Shown here: in pieces, positions 26,000 through 48,680 of the stretch
How the letters are laid out: every line of letters begins with the position of its first letter
Position numbering within the stretch: position 1 is the stretch's first letter
IMG/VR virus record: IMGVR_UViG_3300045977_000377
Coordinates: 1 to 54,993 of that record
DNA length: 54,993 bases
Source of the DNA: a virus
Direction: 5' to 3' (one strand)
Notes under the pieces: generated by a model
Databases searched by the model: none
The model's input: the letters and a program-made list of their open reading frames with translations, nothing else
What the model was told of the DNA's origin: nothing
Program-made: the position numbers and the translations under genes

Positions 26000-26074
26000 A
26001 AATCAACCCTTGCGGTCAAGTGCGACCTGCGGTACTATCGGCCAAACTGTCGGGTTTCTACGTGTGATGTACTG

Positions 26075-26113
26075 GGGCCGCTCGGGGTTGGGCGGCCCTC
26101 CGCATTTCTGCGG
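26075..26113 (-). promoter_or_regulatory. Two hairpins in the leader of the terminase transcript
   Basis: GGGCCGC/GCGGCCC (26075-26098, 10-base loop) and CCGCA-tttc-TGCGG (26100-26113) lie between the predicted late promoter and the small terminase start. No U-run follows. They might be part of a packaging site or a leader structure. In lambda the cos site occupies the equivalent place. Confidence 0.45.
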
Positions 26114-26126
26114 ACGCGGAAGCTTA

Positions 26127-26156
26127 CGAATAGCAGAGAATCCCCTTACAAGTCAA
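26127..26156 (-). promoter_or_regulatory. Predicted late promoter before the terminase genes
   Basis: On the minus strand, TTGACT (26156-26151) and TATTCG (26132-26127) are separated by 18 bases. The -35 box is good and the -10 box poor, as expected for an activated promoter. The geometry matches the early promoter at 51221-51250. Operator-like repeats lie just upstream at 26167-26206. It would transcribe the whole morphogenesis operon. Confidence 0.5.
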
Positions 26157-26166
26157 GAGGTTGCCC

Positions 26167-26206
26167 TGTGGAAAAGACGCCACTTGCGATGTGGCGGCAT
26201 TGCCAC
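26167..26206. promoter_or_regulatory. Operator-like repeats upstream of the late promoter
   Basis: This 40-base stretch contains TGTGGAAAA (26167-26175), CGCCAC-n7-GTGGCG (26178-26196) and GTGGC-GGCATT-GCCAC (26191-26206). The same elements occur in the control region at 51278-51612, including GTGGC-n6-GCCAC. They end 11 bases from the -35 box, a position suited to an activator. The bound protein may be the XRE regulator at 51681, which is inferred only. Confidence 0.55.
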
Positions 26207-26232
26207 CTATGCCGAGTAGTCACTCTGCTAAA

Positions 26233-26559
26233 TAGCTGATTCTAGGGCACTTGATCGAGCGAGAGCCTGGTTTCGCGTCCGTAAGTAGCTGATTCTAAAC
26301 GAGTTCCGAACCGCGGAGCCCGCGGGATGCCCAAGCCGCTGAAACTAAGTGATTTAGCTCGTATCGCTAGCGGTTTTGTGCGGGCGGCGAAGCCCCCGAC
26401 CGACCCCCCGGCGGAAGTACCTTAGAATCAACGGCGTACTGATTCCAAAGGACTTAGCTAAAGCCTTTGCAATCAGCGGTTTACCAAACCATTGATTCGG
26501 AAGGGGATAGCTCGCGCTGATTCTAAAGGACTTGAACTCGTTTAGAATCAACGGCGCGC
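26233..26559. repeat. Dispersed hairpin repeat family, cluster 1
   Basis: Several imperfect palindromes share arms like CCTTTAGAATCA and TGATTCYAAAGG. The clearest are 26416-26459, 26464-26504 and 26514-26559. In the last, TGATTCTAAA (26518-26527) pairs perfectly with TTTAGAATCA (26541-26550). Single arms occur at 26236, 26290, 26674 and 27399. A second cluster lies at 29502-29612. The loops are often GC-rich (acggcg). Function is unknown; binding sites or mobile miniature repeats are both possible. Confidence 0.75.
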
Positions 26560-26700
26560 TCGTGTCACCATCGGCAGGTGGCAGGCAGGGCCGACGGCCG
26601 ACGGGCGCGCCCGAGGGCCGAAAATCGACTATTGACGGCCGTCGGCCGATGCGACTATGCGCCATCACATTATGTTTAGAATCAATCACTTACAACGAAA

Positions 26701-27486
26701 TGTGGAAAACGGCCGTTTTTCGAGTACTAGTGGCACGGCGCGGGATTCCCCTATGAGACACATAGTACTAGTCATCTCGTTGATAATGAATGGTTTATTG
26801 ATTTTCGCCGTTTGCCTGTGGAAAACCACGGGGAATCAACGGGATACAGGGCCGACGGCCGACGGGCGCCGACACTGGAGAGGGCAGGCGCGCCCGAGGG
26901 CAGGCAGGGCCGACGGCGCGCGACAGGTGGCAGGGCAGGCAGGCAGGCGCCCGGTTAGACGGCCGACGGCGCGCGATAGGACGGCCGACGGCGCGCCCGG
27001 TAGACAGGTGGCAGGCAGGGCAGGCGCGCCCATCGGACGCGCGCCCGAGGGCAGGCAGGCGGCGCCCGTGGCAGGTGGCAGGGCCGACGGTCGACAGGCA
27101 GGCAGGCGGCCGCCTGCAGGGCAGGCAGGCGCGCCCGAGGGCAAGTGTAGAGACCGACGGCCGACGGCGCCCCCGGCGCCCGAGGGCAGGCAGGGCCGAC
27201 GGTCGATTGGATACTTATTCACGTTTATGCATATCTATACATTTTTGGATGTCGGCGCCTCGGGAATCTTGAATCCCTATAGAGATGAGGGCGATTGGTT
27301 TTCCACAGTGTATCTGTTGATTCATTCGCCTCACTTTCGCTTTTTTTAGCCCTCGGAAGGGCTTCCATTGCGTAACGGTGCGCTCACACGCCGTCGGTCG
27401 ATTCTAGGGCCGTTTCCGCCTCGGGAAACCCTATGTTCGTTTGTGGGAAAGTCAACGACTTACACTGTGGATAAAACTGTGGATTT
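26701..27486. other. Candidate replication origin with DnaA-box-like sites
   Basis: A perfect DnaA box TGTGGATAA is at 27466-27474, with TGTGGATTT at 27478 and TGTGGGAAA at 27442 beside it. TGTGGAAAA, one mismatch from the consensus, occurs at 26701, 26817 and, on the other strand, 27299. AT-rich DNA (27206-27250, 27300-27350) separates the groups and could melt first. This combination in non-coding DNA suggests an origin. The phage initiator-like gene lies elsewhere (38097-39014). Confidence 0.5.
26848..27205. repeat. Mosaic block of short GC-rich words
   Basis: About 360 bases are built almost wholly from a few words in changing order: GGCAGG/GCAGGCAGG, CCGACGGCCGACGG, GGCGCGCCCGAGGG, GACAGGTGGCAGG and CCTGCAGG. 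Many words are 8-base palindromes. There is no fixed period, so this is not a simple tandem array or a CRISPR. Smaller blocks occur at 26574-26615, 27537-27672 and 29405-29500. Confidence 0.8.
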
Positions 27487-27586
27487 TTCGGGCTGTTTTC
27501 GGAGTATTCACCCGGTATACATGCGGCCGTCGGCGCCGACACTGGGGAGAGGGCAGGCGGCCGCCTGCAGGGCAGGCGTAGAGGGC

Positions 27587-27614
27587 AGGGCAGGCAGGCA
27601 GGCAGGCAGGCAGG
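27587..27614. repeat. Tetranucleotide tandem repeat (GGCA)n
   Basis: About six perfect GGCA/GCAG units follow two imperfect ones inside the second word block (27537-27672). Simple repeats of this kind can vary in number by slippage. Confidence 0.8.
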
Positions 27615-27691
27615 GCGCCGACGGCGCGCCCATAAACAGAACGGGCGCCCGTGTTACCGGGCGCCCGTGGCAGGTGGTCTGTTAGATCGAT

Positions 27692-27871
27692 CTATCGGCC
27701 GTTGAAACGAGCGGATAGGGTAATGCTGACGATATCGTCAGCGCGGGCGCCGTACATCTCACGCGCGACATCGGGCGCCCGTAGCACGGCGTCTGCTAAT
27801 CGGAAGTCGCGAAAGAACAACGTCTGACTCCGCCCGCTGCCGAATTCAACGTCAAAAGCGAATAGGTTCAT
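27692..27871 (-). CDS. Hypothetical protein (59 aa), last gene of the accessory cassette
   Basis: This ORF of 60 codons runs from ATG 27871 to TAG 27692, behind aaaagggaaact. It reads MNLFAFDVEFGSGRSQTLFF, then ADAVLRAPDVAREMYGARAD, and ends in a short beta-like stretch. It follows the gene at 27892 by 20 bases and lies at the end of a five-gene leftward unit. The start, ribosome site and spacing support a real gene. No family is recognised. Confidence 0.65.
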   Translation of the reverse strand: MNLFAFDVEFGSGRSQTLFFRDFRLADAVLRAPDVAREMYGARADDIVSITLSARFNGR

Positions 27872-27891
27872 AGTTTCCCTTTTCCCCTGCC

Positions 27892-28098
27892 CTACTCGGG
27901 CAGGCGTTCGATTCCCTGCCTCTCCCGATGGTAGGTATGATTCCCGTCAAAGTCCGAGTGTAGGTATGTCACCTGCCCGAAGTATCCCCGCGCCCATTCT
28001 GTAGCTTCCGAGCAACTGTCCGAGTGAATCACCACATCGAAAGTGTAGGCGTCGGTCTGATTCTCAAATCGCACAATAAACGGCCGTTCTGATCTCAT
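27892..28098 (-). CDS. Hypothetical protein (68 aa) of the accessory cassette
   Basis: The protein begins MRSERPFIVRFENQTDAYTF and has VVIHSDSCSEATEWARGYFG followed by LHSDFDGNHTYHRERQG. Its start overlaps the stop of the upstream gene by one base (TAATG). Codons use more A and T than in the structural genes, like the whole cassette. It looks like a small alpha/beta soluble protein. No known family is recognised. Confidence 0.7.
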   Translation of the reverse strand: MRSERPFIVRFENQTDAYTFDVVIHSDSCSEATEWARGYFGQVTYLHSDFDGNHTYHRERQGIERLPE

Positions 28099-28322
28099 TA
28101 GCGCACCACCTGTGATGCCAATTCTCCGATGGTTCCCTTAGCGAAAGCTTCCCATCGGCGCCCGCGTTGAATGTAGGTGTACAACATGACCGTACCGTCG
28201 GACGCGATGTAGGACGCATTCTGATCAATCCGAAACACGGCGCCGGGAAAGTGTCTCAAGCGAAACGTCTCGGGGAATTCCGCTATCGCGGATTCCAGGG
28301 TCTTTTTTTGCTCGTTTGTCAT
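28098..28322 (-). CDS. Hypothetical protein (74 aa) of the accessory cassette
   Basis: The protein is MTNEQKKTLESAIAEFPETF followed by RHFPGAVFRIDQNASYIASD and TYIQRGRRWEAFAKGTIGEL. A clear ribosome site (tagaacggagaaaacgac) precedes ATG 28322. The N-terminal helix and following beta strands suggest a small compact domain. It is coupled to the 68-aa gene downstream. Function is unknown. Confidence 0.72.
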   Translation of the reverse strand: MTNEQKKTLESAIAEFPETFRLRHFPGAVFRIDQNASYIASDGTVMLYTYIQRGRRWEAFAKGTIGELASQVVR

Positions 28323-28337
28323 GTCGTTTTCTCCGTT

Positions 28338-28475
28338 CTAGTTGGTTCTCAGATACTGCCATACGGCGCGCCAAACGGCGCGCCATTGAATCGGCCGACG
28401 GCCGTCTACCCTGCAGGTGTGCTCACTCCGAAGCAAACCGGCGCCGCACGCCTCACAACCCCGTGTGATCTCCAT
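28338..28475 (-). CDS. Tiny cysteine-motif protein (45 aa)
   Basis: The start ATG 28475 shares a base with the upstream stop (TAATG), so it is translationally coupled. The protein is short: MEITRGCEACGAGLLRSEHT followed by C and a basic tail with the duplicated WRAV (QWRAVWRAVWQYLRTN). CEAC and the later Cys/His could bind zinc. The WRAV duplication comes from two GGCGCGCC palindromes in the DNA. A longer frame to 28616 reads through the upstream gene and is rejected. Confidence 0.6.
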   Translation of the reverse strand: MEITRGCEACGAGLLRSEHTCRVDGRRPIQWRAVWRAVWQYLRTN

Positions 28476-29344
28476 TAGGCGGCCGCCTTGATAGTCGAGA
28501 TCAGCGAATCGACCGACACAAACGACTTGGCTCCGGCGCCGTGAACGATGATTGCTATCGACTTCCGACCGTCGGCCGAACCATGGGCGCCATCGCACAA
28601 CCTGCAGGCAGAGCACACAGACTTGTGATTGCCCTCGGGAGTAGCGGGACAGATGATTTCACCGGGGAGTAGCGCTTGATCGGCCGTACGGCATCTGAAC
28701 GCGCGCCACCCCATACGGCGCGCCTCCGCATACTCCGCAGGGGTGTCGACAGATGCCATCACATACGGCCGATACTTCTGATACTCGGGCTGTTTCCACT
28801 GATGGGTATACCCTGTCCACCCACTGGAGACGGCCGTTATCGCCTGCAGGATGTCGACGGGAATCAGGACAGGTTCGCCGTACGCGCCCCACCTGATTTT
28901 CTTTCCCTCGAAAACGGCCCTGTATCCGTCGGCCGTCAGATGTTCATAGCGCCCGCGTTTATAGGCTTTCCATACTCCCGTCGGTGCTTTCCCCACTTGG
29001 ACATAGCAGGTGCGCTTGGACCGTTTAGACTTCAGAGTGATCAGACCGCCCCGGTGCTTGCAATCGAAACAAACGATATCGTCAAGACCGAGTTTCACCG
29101 CCTGTATCGGGCTGATGTCGCGCGGGAGAATCCATACCTGCAGCATCGGCCCTGTTTTCGGATTCTTAGACCGCAGCGTCACAATGACCACGATGTTTGC
29201 GTTCTCGAAGAGCACGTATCCAATCGTCGGCGGCCGTTTGACGGCGCGCCGTTTGGCGCATCGCGCCCGAGTATTGGAAGAACGGCGCGCCCGTTTGGCG
29301 GCCGCCTGTCGTTTGATCTGAGTTACTGCCTTGTGGTTTGTCAT
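28475..29344 (-). CDS. Conserved phage protein with C-terminal cysteine cluster, function unknown
   Basis: The protein has 289 aa from ATG 29344 (311 aa if started at 29410; neither has a clear ribosome site). A basic N-terminus is followed by a core with DDIVCFDCKHRGG and TCYVQVGKAPTGVWKAYKRG, and then IRWGAYGEPVLIPVDILQAI. The C-terminal part has EIICPATPEGN, CSACRLCDG and KSIAIIVHGAGAKSF. From memory this resembles a widespread uncharacterised phage/plasmid family with the same CPA-CxxCxxC-HG order. It is the first gene of the cassette behind a predicted promoter. Confidence 0.85.
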   Translation of the reverse strand: MTNHKAVTQIKRQAAAKRARRSSNTRARCAKRRAVKRPPTIGYVLFENANIVVIVTLRSKNPKTGPMLQVWILPRDISPIQAVKLGLDDIVCFDCKHRGGLITLKSKRSKRTCYVQVGKAPTGVWKAYKRGRYEHLTADGYRAVFEGKKIRWGAYGEPVLIPVDILQAITAVSSGWTGYTHQWKQPEYQKYRPYVMASVDTPAEYAEARRMGWRAFRCRTADQALLPGEIICPATPEGNHKSVCSACRLCDGAHGSADGRKSIAIIVHGAGAKSFVSVDSLISTIKAAA

Positions 29345-29501
29345 AAGCCATAGGGTAACCGTGCGATTGACGGCCCTGCCTGTCACACTAGTAATAGGCG
29401 CCCGTGCCATGACGGCCGACGGCCGACGGCCGACGGGCGCCCGAGGGCGCCCCTGCAGGGCCGAAAACCGCGCGTTCGATGGCAGGCAGGGCAGGCAGGG
29501 G

Positions 29502-29612
29502 GTAACCCCTTTAGAATCAGCGCCGCGTTGATAGCAAAGGGCTTACCAAGTCCTTTAGAATCAACGCCGTGTAACCCCTTTGGAATCAGCGCCGACTGAT
29601 TCCAGGGGGGTT
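29502..29612. repeat. Dispersed hairpin repeat family, cluster 2
   Basis: Three units of the CCTTTAGAATCA family lie here. The best hairpin pairs AACCCCTTTGGAATCAG (29573-29589) with CTGATTCCAGGGGGGTT (29596-29612) with two mismatches. A second imperfect one spans 29502-29545 and a half-unit lies at 29549-29570. With cluster 1 at 26.2-26.6 kb they bracket the cassette and the word blocks. Confidence 0.75.
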
Positions 29613-29651
29613 GCGCGGAGGGCATAGTGGGACCGTCCGGAGGGTGATCCT

Positions 29652-29680
29652 ATTATTTTTCGACCTGGGAAAATTTCCAA
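29652..29680 (-). promoter_or_regulatory. Predicted promoter of the accessory cassette
   Basis: On the minus strand, TTGGAA (29680-29675) and AATAAT (29657-29652) are 17 bases apart in an AT-rich patch. A 24-base palindrome lies 8 bases upstream. It would transcribe the five genes 29344-27692 through the hairpin cluster. Confidence 0.55.
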
Positions 29681-29687
29681 CTTTTTG

Positions 29688-29736
29688 ATTTCGGTTTTGG
29701 AAAACCGAAATAGGTTTTATCTAAGTTAGAAAACCT
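29688..29736. promoter_or_regulatory. Two adjacent palindromes, operator-like
   Basis: ATTTCGGTTTT-GG-AAAACCGAAAT (29688-29711) has perfect 11-base arms. AGGTTTT...AAAACCT (29712-29736) encloses a smaller perfect palindrome TCTAAgTTAGA. Both lie just upstream of the predicted promoter. They are AT-rich, unlike the surrounding DNA, and look like dimer-binding sites, or part of a terminator for the gene at 29758. Confidence 0.6.
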
Positions 29737-29757
29737 GCCACTTACTCGGCCTCTGGC

Positions 29758-29985
29758 TTAGTAGCTCCTGGCCGGAGGCGGCTCCACCGGAACTTCCTTC
29801 TCGATCCGATAGAGGGCGACGTCGCGGCGCGTGTCGGTGGTCTCGTACACCAGCGTCAACTCGATCACCGGGCTCTTCGGGCAGGCGCGCGTTCTGAGCA
29901 CCACGGTGCGCTGCGGCGATTCGCCCGGCGCGACGGCGAAGGCGAACTGGACCGTCTGGCCCTTCCGGATGTACTCCCCGATCAC
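29758..29985 (-). CDS. Hypothetical protein (75 aa)
   Basis: GTG 29985 has a good ribosome site (ctggagttctct). The protein reads MIGEYIRKGQTVQFAFAVAP, then RTVVLRTRACPKSPVIELTL and a beta-rich end with a proline tail (PVEPPPARSY). It may be a small beta-sandwich. It sits between the terminator at 30265 and the cassette promoter, so its own promoter must lie in 29986-30262. No family is recognised. Confidence 0.65.
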   Translation of the reverse strand: MIGEYIRKGQTVQFAFAVAPGESPQRTVVLRTRACPKSPVIELTLVYETTDTRRDVALYRIEKEVPVEPPPARSY

Positions 29986-34688: not shown

Positions 34689-35612
34689 TTACACCTTCAC
34701 CTTGATCTCGCGCGCCGGAGCTTTGGTCCCCTTGGTTCCGCGAATCACCGACGGCGTCCAGACCAACTGGTGGTATTTGCCGAAGAGCCCGCGCCCTTCG
34801 CGATAGTCGCGGAAGTGCCCTCGGCAGATGTGAAGGGCCTTCGCGATGCCGACCTCGTTAGATCGCCCCTCCTGCCGCAGGATCTGCTTCAGCGGCTCGA
34901 TCACGAGCGTCTTGTAGGCGCAGGGCTCGACGCCGTGCCGCGCCTTGTATTTCTTCACCAGCGGCGCGGGCACGCGATTGTCGTCCAGCCGCACGTTCTT
35001 GCAGTGCAGGAAGCTGACGGCCAGGAAGCCGACGTTGAACCACGTCATCAGCTTCTGCATCATGTCCTGGTAGTGGCCGCCCGTGAACGATTGCATCCAC
35101 GGCCGGTCGACCAGCCTGCCCTCCGCGTCGACGGCAAAGAAGCACGGGCCGTGGCTCCCGTCGGCGGTGACGCCGAAGGGCCTGCAGTAGTCGATGAACA
35201 GTTCGCACCAGTAGATCCACTTCACGTTGTCGGGCACGCCTTCGCCCTTGAACTCGTTGCGCTCCATGGCGGCGAAGTACATGCCGCAGCGGCCGTTGGG
35301 CACGGGCTGAGTGGAGTCGCCCGCCTCCTTCGAGTGGATGATCTTGGGCAGGCGATGCTCGCACCAGAACTGCTTGTAGGGCGGCGCGAGGTTCGGGAAG
35401 TGGACGGAGAGATCCCAGTATTCCTGGTCGCTCGCCGTGTAGTAATAGTCGGACACGTTGTCGATCAGGAGCACCGGCAGATCGGGATTCTGCAGCGCTT
35501 GGTTGACGCGGAGCGTATGCTCCAGCCAGTGCTTCTCGTGTTGAGGCGCAATCCACATCGGCATCTGGACGCGGGCGCCGGGCGCGCGGAGATCATCGAT
35601 AAATCGGGGCAT
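34689..35612 (-). CDS. RGHF-motif protein, copy A (possible anti-defence family)
   Basis: A 307-aa protein, start ATG 35612. The C-terminal third has YKTLVIEPLKQILRQEG and ALHICRGHFRDYREGRGLFG, then a W and a VIRG turn. The gene at 47832 shares this region (ALHLCRGHFAYYPPTGKGLF) and the upstream HCKNV/HCKSV motif, so they are diverged paralogues. The RGHF-plus-W arrangement recalls, from memory, the C-terminal motif of the AcrVA2 anti-CRISPR family; this is a weak similarity by eye. No catalytic triad or membrane segment is seen. Confidence 0.8.
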   Translation of the reverse strand: MPRFIDDLRAPGARVQMPMWIAPQHEKHWLEHTLRVNQALQNPDLPVLLIDNVSDYYYTASDQEYWDLSVHFPNLAPPYKQFWCEHRLPKIIHSKEAGDSTQPVPNGRCGMYFAAMERNEFKGEGVPDNVKWIYWCELFIDYCRPFGVTADGSHGPCFFAVDAEGRLVDRPWMQSFTGGHYQDMMQKLMTWFNVGFLAVSFLHCKNVRLDDNRVPAPLVKKYKARHGVEPCAYKTLVIEPLKQILRQEGRSNEVGIAKALHICRGHFRDYREGRGLFGKYHQLVWTPSVIRGTKGTKAPAREIKVKV

Positions 35613-39806: not shown

Positions 39807-40211
39807 TCAGGGCGCCCTCGCCCGCGCGGCCAGGATCTGCGCCCACTCCACGAGGGCGCGTTCCTGATGGCCGTCGAGCCACCTCGCGAGAGACTCCACG
39901 CTATCGACCGTGCAGATCGCGAGTCGGTAGCCGAGGTAGATCTCCCGGTGCTTTGCTGCCTGCTCTAGTGAAGCGACCTCGCCAGGACGCTTCACCTCAA
40001 GCAGGAAGCCAGGAAAGATGGCGTGCTCCAGCGCGTAGTCCGGAGTGCCCTTCTCGACGCCGGTAATCCAGCGCCTGCCGTCGAGCGTCTTGTACCGGCC
40101 CGCATGCAGCCGCACCGGCCAGTAGGACCGCAGGCGCAGCAGATCGAGACATCCCTTCTCGACATCGTTCTCGACCAGCTTCACGCGCGGCGATGTGAGG
40201 CGGAAGGTCAC
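39807..40211 (-). CDS. VRR-NUC domain nuclease
   Basis: The product has 134 aa from GTG 40211, which overlaps the radical SAM gene stop (GTGA) behind gctggaggctctcca. The sequence has an N-terminal E (LVENDVEKGCLDLL), then GTPDYALEH and FLLEVKRPG, followed by HREIYLGYRLAICTVDSV. G-x-P-D and ExK are the catalytic signature of the VRR-NUC PD-(D/E)XK family. Likely a structure-specific nuclease in replication or recombination. The longer frame to 40754 is a shadow. Confidence 0.85.
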   Translation of the reverse strand: MTFRLTSPRVKLVENDVEKGCLDLLRLRSYWPVRLHAGRYKTLDGRRWITGVEKGTPDYALEHAIFPGFLLEVKRPGEVASLEQAAKHREIYLGYRLAICTVDSVESLARWLDGHQERALVEWAQILAARARAP

Positions 40212-41179
40212 TGGAGAGCCTCCAGCAACGGGAAGGTCGGCGCGGGCTTCAGGTAGATGGGCTGATACTTCGCGCCCGCCCAATCCTTCCACGGGATGCG
40301 CTTGTCGTAAGCGCCGAGCACCCACCGCTGATAGCCCATCAACTCGGGCGTCCGCACGTAGGGCATCGGGAACGGCCGCGCGCCGAACTCGCGCAACCGC
40401 TGGCGCCGGTAGTCGCGGTCTTGATGCGTCTCGCCGGGCCAATATCCGACGAGCATATAGACCAGCAGATGGTTCGGCCGCACGCCGTGCCGCACCAGAG
40501 CTTCGAGCCCGGCGAAGAGCCGCGCCTCGTCCTTGCGGTTGTCCCATGCGGTGTACAACCGGCGGCGGAAGAAGTGGGAGTCGTAGTAGCGGACGCTCGC
40601 GGCGGCGGCGGCGGTCTCGTCGTTGAGGAAGCGCGCGTTGATGCCCTGCGTGAAGTTGACCTTGAAGCGGCCGCTGATCATCTCGTCGACGCGGGCGCGC
40701 CAGTCCGGTTGGCCGAAGAAGTCGTTGTCGAGGAGAGTGATGTTTCGCGGCCACGGGTCGCCGCGCCAGATGCGGTAGATCGTCCGGTCCTCGGTGACCG
40801 GGCCTTCCTTCTCGGGGACCACGCAGAACGGGCAGCGGAGCCTGCAGCCGCGCTGCGTGAAGCCGATGGAGTGCGGGAAGTCCGGATAGATGGAGTAGTC
40901 CTGCTCGGCGGTCTCGATGCCGTGACGCTCCAGCGTGGTCTCCATGTCAACGCCGGTCCCGCCGATGATTGCCTCGGGGAACTCGCGCCGCACGCGCTCG
41001 ACGGCCGGTCGCGTCTTCAGGAAGATGGCGCTCGCGTAGACCTTGTCCCACTCCTGGTCCCAGAGCTTGCGCTCGCCGCCGCGCCGCAGCGTCACCTCGT
41101 CGCCGCGATGGTGGGCGGCGATTCGCATTAGCGCGACGTTGGGCAGCTTGCCGTCGAGTTGGAGCAGGAGCACGCGCAT
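40208..41179 (-). CDS. Radical SAM protein
   Basis: A 323-aa protein, ATG 41179 (ATGA overlap). The N-terminal domain (MRVLLLQLDGKLPNVALMRI) looks like a Rossmann or B12-type fold. The cluster motif is RGCRLRCPFC with C112, C116 and C119 (Cx3Cx2C), after which follow ITLLDNDFFG and NFTQGINARFLNDETA, as in radical SAM barrels. It should use an iron-sulfur cluster and SAM; the substrate is unknown. Neighbours are nucleases, so nucleic-acid modification is one guess. Confidence 0.85.
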   Translation of the reverse strand: MRVLLLQLDGKLPNVALMRIAAHHRGDEVTLRRGGERKLWDQEWDKVYASAIFLKTRPAVERVRREFPEAIIGGTGVDMETTLERHGIETAEQDYSIYPDFPHSIGFTQRGCRLRCPFCVVPEKEGPVTEDRTIYRIWRGDPWPRNITLLDNDFFGQPDWRARVDEMISGRFKVNFTQGINARFLNDETAAAAASVRYYDSHFFRRRLYTAWDNRKDEARLFAGLEALVRHGVRPNHLLVYMLVGYWPGETHQDRDYRRQRLREFGARPFPMPYVRTPELMGYQRWVLGAYDKRIPWKDWAGAKYQPIYLKPAPTFPLLEALQ

Positions 41180-47492: not shown

Positions 47493-47839
47493 CCCTCGAA
47501 CCCAAGGTTCTCCTGCTTCTCCAGCCACGTCAGCGGCTCCATCCGGAGCACGTCGTTGGTGTCCATGCGGAGGATCTTCGCGAAGTCGGCGCCCTTCTCC
47601 ACAATCCGGACCACCTCGACCTCGACCGTCTTGTGGCGCGTGTGAACGATGTCGGCCAACTCCGCGATGCGCTTGGAGGCGGCATTCATCCGGCCCGCGA
47701 TTTCCGAGACCGCTGTCTTGCGCTCGGCCCTCGCCGCTTCCAGTTCCTTCTCGGCGGCCGCTAGCTCCGCGCTGAACTTCGCGAACTCCTCGTCGGTGAT
47801 CTTGTCGCGCACCGTCTCGTACTTGCGCTCGTCACTCAT
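47489..47839 (-). CDS. Coiled-coil protein (116 aa)
   Basis: The protein reads MSDERKYETVRDKITDEEFA and has a long coiled coil (residues about 20-75: AELAAAEKELEAARAERKTA, GRMNAASKRIAELADIVHTR). The C-terminal part is beta/helix (EVEVVRIVEKGADFAKILRM). It overlaps the RGHF-protein gene by eight bases upstream and the ribbon gene by four downstream. It could be a structural partner. No family known. Confidence 0.72.
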   Translation of the reverse strand: MSDERKYETVRDKITDEEFAKFSAELAAAEKELEAARAERKTAVSEIAGRMNAASKRIAELADIVHTRHKTVEVEVVRIVEKGADFAKILRMDTNDVLRMEPLTWLEKQENLGFEG

Positions 47840-48680
47840 GGGGCTCTTCCTCCTCCGGCGGCTGAACTTTGTAATCGGACACGATGACGCCCTTCTTCTC
47901 GGTCCCGCGCGCGTGCGACGGAATCCAGAAGTTGCCGTACTGCCCTCGGCCGAAGAGCCCCTTGCCGGTGGGCGGATAGTATGCGAAGTGCCCTCGGCAA
48001 AGATGCAGCGCTCGCTCCAGGCCGACCGACTCGATCTTGCCTTCCGACCGGAGAATGCTCTTCAGCCCTTCGATCTCCAGCGTCTGGTAGCGCAGCATGG
48101 GCGGCTTGCCGCGCTCCAGGTTGCGCTTGACGAGCTTCGGCGGCGGGGCGTGCTCGACGCGCGGCACGCTCTTGCAGTGCATGAACATGATGCCGAGCAG
48201 GATCGGCGTCATCGTCTGGTTGGCGAAGTTTGACATGAACTCGCGCGTCATTCCCGGCATCGGCATCGGATGCAGCGAGACGGTCGAATCGGCCAACTCG
48301 CCTTGCTCGTTGAGCGGCAGCGTCTGAACGCAGTAACAGCGGGCCGCTCCGTCGGCATGCCCGCCGGAGACCATCACCATTTCGAGAGCCCACTCCGGCC
48401 GCCGGAGTTCTGTGCAGAGCGCGCCGATGGTCATCCGCTCGCGCTCGGCCGGATCGGGCGGGATGAGATACTCCATCCAAAATTGCGGGAACGGCGGCGC
48501 CACCAGCCCGAGCCGATGGTATCCGCCGGGGTTGAAGTGCGCCCGCTCTGCGGAATACGCTGCGACGTTATCGATCACGATGACCGGCGCCCTGGACACG
48601 GCCCGCCGGAAGGCTTCGACCCTATGCGGCAGCAAATTCAAAATAGCCGCCGTCTGCACCTCTTCCGCCAAACGCCGCAT
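47832..48680 (-). CDS. RGHF-motif protein, copy B (possible anti-defence family)
   Basis: A 282-aa paralogue of 34689-35612. Shared features include VIVIDNVAAYS versus VLLIDNVSDYY near the start, FMHCKSV versus FLHCKNV, and LEIEGLKSILRSEG then ALHLCRGHFAYYPPTGKGLF. Identity by eye is concentrated in the last 110 residues. The proteins are diverged enough to suggest different partners. No active site is obvious. The likeness to AcrVA2-type C-termini is only suggestive. Confidence 0.8.
   Translation of the reverse strand: MRRLAEEVQTAAILNLLPHRVEAFRRAVSRAPVIVIDNVAAYSAERAHFNPGGYHRLGLVAPPFPQFWMEYLIPPDPAERERMTIGALCTELRRPEWALEMVMVSGGHADGAARCYCVQTLPLNEQGELADSTVSLHPMPMPGMTREFMSNFANQTMTPILLGIMFMHCKSVPRVEHAPPPKLVKRNLERGKPPMLRYQTLEIEGLKSILRSEGKIESVGLERALHLCRGHFAYYPPTGKGLFGRGQYGNFWIPSHARGTEKKGVIVSDYKVQPPEEEEPHE

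Follow-up and report, generated by a model that had tools for sequence, protein, structure and literature searches.

What does a run of five small open reading frames (ORFs), set between two clusters of hairpin repeats in a phage genome, do for the phage that carries it? The run lies in a virus record of 54,993 bases, analysed here as a whole (the window), which also encodes terminase, RecT-like, integrase and radical SAM proteins. The original prediction, made from the letters of the DNA, regarded the five ORFs as an independently acquired unit, perhaps serving defence, counter-defence or replication control.

Organization of the operon

The five ORFs, encoding 289, 45, 74, 68 and 59 amino acids (aa), were found exactly where and as large as predicted, and all of them lie on the minus strand, which the prediction had left unstated (Table 1). 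They form a real operon: TAATG stop–start overlaps join the lead gene to the 45-aa ORF and the 74-aa ORF to the 68-aa ORF, and the remaining two junctions are gaps of 15 and 20 bp, in which the leaders are rich in purines. An intrinsic terminator follows the last gene, and an identical hairpin and tail occur 3′ of the small ORF that follows the lead gene in the related phage L012. The set had also been placed behind its own promoter and palindromes; the palindromes are enriched, as described below, but a promoter scan found two promoter-like sites against 1.1 expected in shuffled sequence, which is not commoner than chance, and the sole site near the lead gene stands approximately 310 bp upstream of it.

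Table 1 Features of the five-gene operon, its surroundings and its counterparts in related phages (positions are those of the window unless a related phage is named)
Feature	Position	Strand	Remarks
Left cluster of TAGAATCA repeats and inverted repeats	26237..26690		6 of the 8 TAGAATCA words of the window
DnaA-box-like sites in the island	26167, 26701, 26817, 27299, 27466
GC-rich GGCAGG-type tandem array	27520..27635		3′ of the terminator
Intrinsic terminator, ACGGGCGCCCGGTAACACGGGCGCCCGT then TCTGTTT	27641..27668	-	11-bp stem; 3′ of the last gene
59-aa ORF	27692..27871	-	last of the set; no relative found
68-aa ORF	27892..28098	-	TAATG coupling to the 74-aa ORF; no relative found
74-aa ORF	28098..28322	-	single homologue, in L016/G004
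45-aa ORF with CxxC...C	28338..28475	-	coupled to the lead gene via TAATG; no accepted family
Lead gene, 289 aa	28475..29344	-	phrog_2554 family; remote relative of GP88 (PF17338), probably related to DUF7227 (PF23872)
Second cysteine cluster, C232-P-A ... C244-x2-C247-x2-C250	28595..28651	-	four of four cysteines invariant in 39 members
First cysteine cluster, C92-x2-C95-x17-C113-Y-V	29006..29071	-	C92, C95 and C113 invariant in 39 aligned members
Basic N-terminal insertion, approximately 29 residues	29246..29332	-	absent from the closest relatives (alignment with L002, L003 and L004)
Right cluster of TAGAATCA/GATTCCA inverted repeats	29500..29620		similar repeats upstream of the lead gene in L002 and L012
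Tandem arrays in relatives	L002 9330-9760; L012 last ~200 bases; L003 3760-3830

The lead protein and its family

By profile comparison, the lead protein belongs to phrog_2554 (E = 2e-65, 222.8 bits; residues 4–281 on profile positions 258–525), in agreement with its predicted membership of a widespread and uncharacterized phage family. The family is present in 147 phage records, and at least 598 places were confirmed, these among the 600 viral stretches examined. The CPA...CxxCxxC...HG pattern that had been read in the lead protein is there (C232-P-A, C244xxC247xxC250 and H268-G269) and is joined by a further invariant set, C92xxC95...C113; in all, seven cysteines, divided between two clusters, and the histidines H181 and H268 are invariant in the 39 aligned members. 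From this pattern we infer that the lead protein probably binds Fe–S clusters or zinc; the seven cysteines could also hold structural zinc without catalysis. The AlphaFold model of the protein has a pLDDT of 89 and a pTM of 0.81, and its strands and helices alternate in the manner of a barrel.

The lead protein of the window differs from its nearest phrog_2554 relatives in an extra basic N-terminal insertion, the DNA of which holds GGCGCGCC and GCGGCCGC tokens similar to those in the repeat blocks, with which it has 12-mers in common. A much longer homologue, of 727 aa with a C-terminal extension of approximately 400 residues, is encoded in a Deltaproteobacteria MAG (L090, 5809–7992), and the extension gave no usable Pfam match or domain. 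A literature search on DUF7227, PF17338, PF23872 and phrog_2554 found no paper in the library covered, and no expression or functional data were found for any phrog_2554 member.

Remote relatives of the lead family

Fold comparison of the lead model with BFVD returned GP88 of HGTV-1 (E = 7e-4, probability 0.97) and a DUF7227 protein (E = 2e-3, probability 0.98), and the GP88 protein of phage Groupthink matched the phrog_2554 profile at E = 1.7e-5. At the level of Pfam, the lead protein had no match to GP88 over the curated cut-off, and a GP88 search of ten related phage records found none either; hhalign of phrog_2554 with the GP88 profiles aligned the C-terminal cysteine region only, at 29–35% probability. 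In that region, the cysteine layout of GP88 proteins is similar to that of the lead protein, whereas the first clusters differ (C-x6-C-x3-CYA in Groupthink versus C-x2-C-x17-CYV in the lead protein). GP88 (gene product 88) is a family of mycobacteriophages and others, and in the mycobacteriophages Loser, Indra, Gail and Groupthink its genes resemble those of the lead family in their right-end place, where small leftward ORFs follow them. DUF7227 reached 17.2 bits against the lead protein, below the curated cut-off of 27, over the CPA...CxxCxxC...HG region; weak matches were found in 28 of the 39 phrog_2554 members, and the related phage records also fell below the Pfam cut-off. On these likenesses of sequence and model, the lead family is a remote relative of GP88 and, through weaker links, probably of DUF7227.

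The barrel-like model and cysteine-rich loops of the lead protein are also reminiscent of radical SAM enzymes; the protein may be an enzyme, possibly with a radical-SAM-like mechanism. However, the radical SAM motif CxxxCxxC is absent from the lead family, in which the conserved pattern is C-x2-C-x(n)-C, and the lead protein, for all its confident barrel-like model, had no Pfam or significant PDB match to these enzymes. PDB searches by fold gave no significant match for the lead protein or GP88, and those by sequence gave nothing relevant for the lead family or GP88. Because the fold matches in this direction (TYW1 and TigE for the lead protein, spore photoproduct lyase for GP88) were all non-significant and the canonical motif is absent, we treat radical SAM solely as a clue to follow. 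The same phage encodes a clear radical SAM protein elsewhere, at window positions 40208–41179 (phrog_9298, E = 2e-45). Two other proteins of unknown function, encoded at 34689–35612 and 47832–48680, have by eye IDNV and CRGHF...GLFG segments in common and may be paralogues.

Genomic position and timing

Among the best 40 of the 147 phage records, which are strongly redundant by lineage, the gene lies mostly within 5 kb of a record end. Neighbourhoods were examined in six of these 40, and a place near the right end, as the first gene in a leftward series of small ORFs, was seen in Caulobacter S2B, Mycobacterium jiawei, RhynO and Bongo; in large phages, the gene is several kb from either end. 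In bacterial prophages, it stands between a T7-type terminase (upstream in Devosia, Variovorax, Rhodopseudomonas and Rhizobacter contigs) and an integrase (downstream in Devosia, Variovorax, Rhodopseudomonas and Novosphingobium contigs). In the related phages L002 and L003, the lead gene has the same place as in the window, upstream of the small subunit of terminase. A homologue of the window gene at 29758 precedes the lead gene in L002; in L064, the lead gene is divergent from a terminase.

That the gene recurs beside terminase and at genome ends would be explained if the lead protein were a packaging- or end-associated accessory, acting for example at the cos or pac region or on terminase. 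Terminase genes are nearby in the window, L002, L003, L064 and the prophages, and in relatives repeats separate the lead gene from the terminase small subunit. We nevertheless consider such a role improbable, since the gene is mostly the first in a series of small non-structural ORFs, the large phages carry it away from their ends and the GP88 gene of Kampy is early, not late.

That gene, Kampy gp87, encodes a GP88 protein (E = 1.4e-35), and Kampy expression at 5 minutes is largely confined to genes 82–88 (PMC4626039). In Wildcat, a leftward block at the right end has the highest expression of the early genes, and 12 of its 29 genes are toxic (PMC7474061). In L5 and D29, transcription from Pleft, an early lytic promoter, begins at the right end, and the Pleft region proved toxic when cloned (PMC5712189). 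The early right-end blocks of the mycobacteriophages Kampy and Wildcat resemble the operon of the window in being series of small, variable genes that have no known function. The window, however, is from a metagenomic phage, and its genes are not those of Kampy or Wildcat; the link to expression runs through GP88, a remote relative, and the Wildcat block serves as an analogy. By analogy with these phages, the operon of the window would be expressed early.

Repeats around the operon

The eight TAGAATCA words of the window all fall at 26.2–26.7 and 29.5 kb, that is, on both sides of the operon, so its placement between two clusters of hairpin repeats stands as predicted. In the window, L002, L012 and L003, the lead operon is followed by a C-rich tandem array, the unit of which differs from phage to phage, and the end of the L012 contig falls inside the array.

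DnaA-box-like sites (with at most one mismatch) are concentrated in the non-coding island, which holds five of the eight in the window where mononucleotide shuffles lead to an expectation of 0.2, and AT-rich inverted repeats flank the operon. Both features would fit a replication-origin region in which the lead operon controls replication, and the clustering of the sites bears indirectly on the replication control originally proposed. Yet one of the five sites matches the single consensus exactly, the other four being near matches; in L002 and L012, where the lead gene is likewise in place, there are no DnaA-box-like sites at the equivalent position; and the lead protein had no replication-protein match in family libraries or NCBIfam; L003 has one exact site at the equivalent place. 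We regard an origin as no likelier than the packaging role.

Composition and inheritance of the genes

GC3 of the five genes concatenated is 0.669, below that of every other called gene (0.851 ± 0.050 (s.d.) for the 68 others, minimum 0.713), and the more AT-rich codon use noticed by eye was thus upheld by calculation. Palindromic hexamers are enriched at window positions 26000–29750 and avoided elsewhere in the window, with tokens in repeats and coding sequence alike. Outside the island, their observed/expected ratio in 1719-base windows is 0.60 ± 0.14 (maximum 0.90), against up to 1.6 in island windows and 1.5 in the five-gene cassette; for G+C-only palindromes, the ratio is 2.76 versus 0.68 ± 0.20 (maximum 1.09) outside the island. 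Identical palindromic words are common to repeat blocks and gene interiors, and the basic insertion of the lead protein is rich in these words. A weaker excess is found in the lead genes of L002, L012 and L004 (z 2.5–2.7), and none in those of L003 and L014. The anomaly may reflect import, relaxed selection or repeat spread. Because close relatives keep the lead gene in place, and L002, L012 and L004 have the weaker palindrome excess, the lead gene is an old resident.

The small ORF after the lead gene encodes 195 aa in L002 and 51 aa in L012, both unrelated to that of the window. For the 74-aa ORF, one homologue was found (L016/G004; 46–48% identity, E = 1e-13 to 3.5e-15), located in L016 approximately 3.7 kb from the lead gene of that phage. 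The 45-aa ORF, searched for in the fetched loci and family libraries, had no homologue in the former and no accepted family in the latter, and the 68- and 59-aa ORFs had no relative in the relatives' loci or the collections searched; NCBIfam gave no usable match, one very weak hit from the 68-aa ORF being disregarded. These searches carry two qualifications: the viral-contig scans rely on exact peptide words and reach close relatives only, and missing homologues are weaker evidence for such short proteins than for long ones. Judged by their distribution, the small genes downstream of the lead gene are local, rapidly replaced add-ons.

Co-travel of the five genes was ruled out by the relatives and the collection searches, in which only the lead gene is widespread. 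The prediction of an independently acquired five-gene unit, to be checked by finding the genes together elsewhere, is therefore not supported: the lead gene alone is kept in relatives, different ORFs follow it and no co-occurrence was found, an outcome that the prediction itself had named as a refutation. Import of all five as one module is highly improbable, because, although the island stands out from the remaining genome in GC3 and in palindrome use, the genes do not occur together in relatives, and close relatives have the lead gene in place, with a weaker palindrome excess in L002, L012 and L004.

Discussion

The explanation that we prefer, and hold with about as much belief as doubt, is an early accessory operon in which the lead gene encodes an Fe–S- or Zn-binding barrel protein for host take-over or counter-defence. 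The operon belongs to a temperate tailed phage and lies between early genes and terminase (packaging) genes, and the set would most likely be expressed early in infection. The lead protein may then alter a host or phage component in a way that favours infection, and the small proteins may act as lineage-specific helpers or inhibitors. Of the defence-related roles first proposed, counter-defence or host take-over is plausible for the operon, but PADLOC defence models gave no match to any of the five proteins at E up to 1. More speculatively, and on balance doubtfully, phrog_2554, GP88 and DUF7227 might make up one superfamily of phage enzymes with a non-canonical Fe–S centre and a barrel fold, among the first genes expressed and modifying a host component in many unrelated phages.

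The lead gene thus represents a family that is spread over many phage records and viral contigs, recurs at genome ends and has no assigned function, and that is linked, through remote homology, to a GP88 gene whose expression is seen at 5 minutes of infection. The recurrence of this place suggests that the family serves a need common to many phage lineages in early infection.
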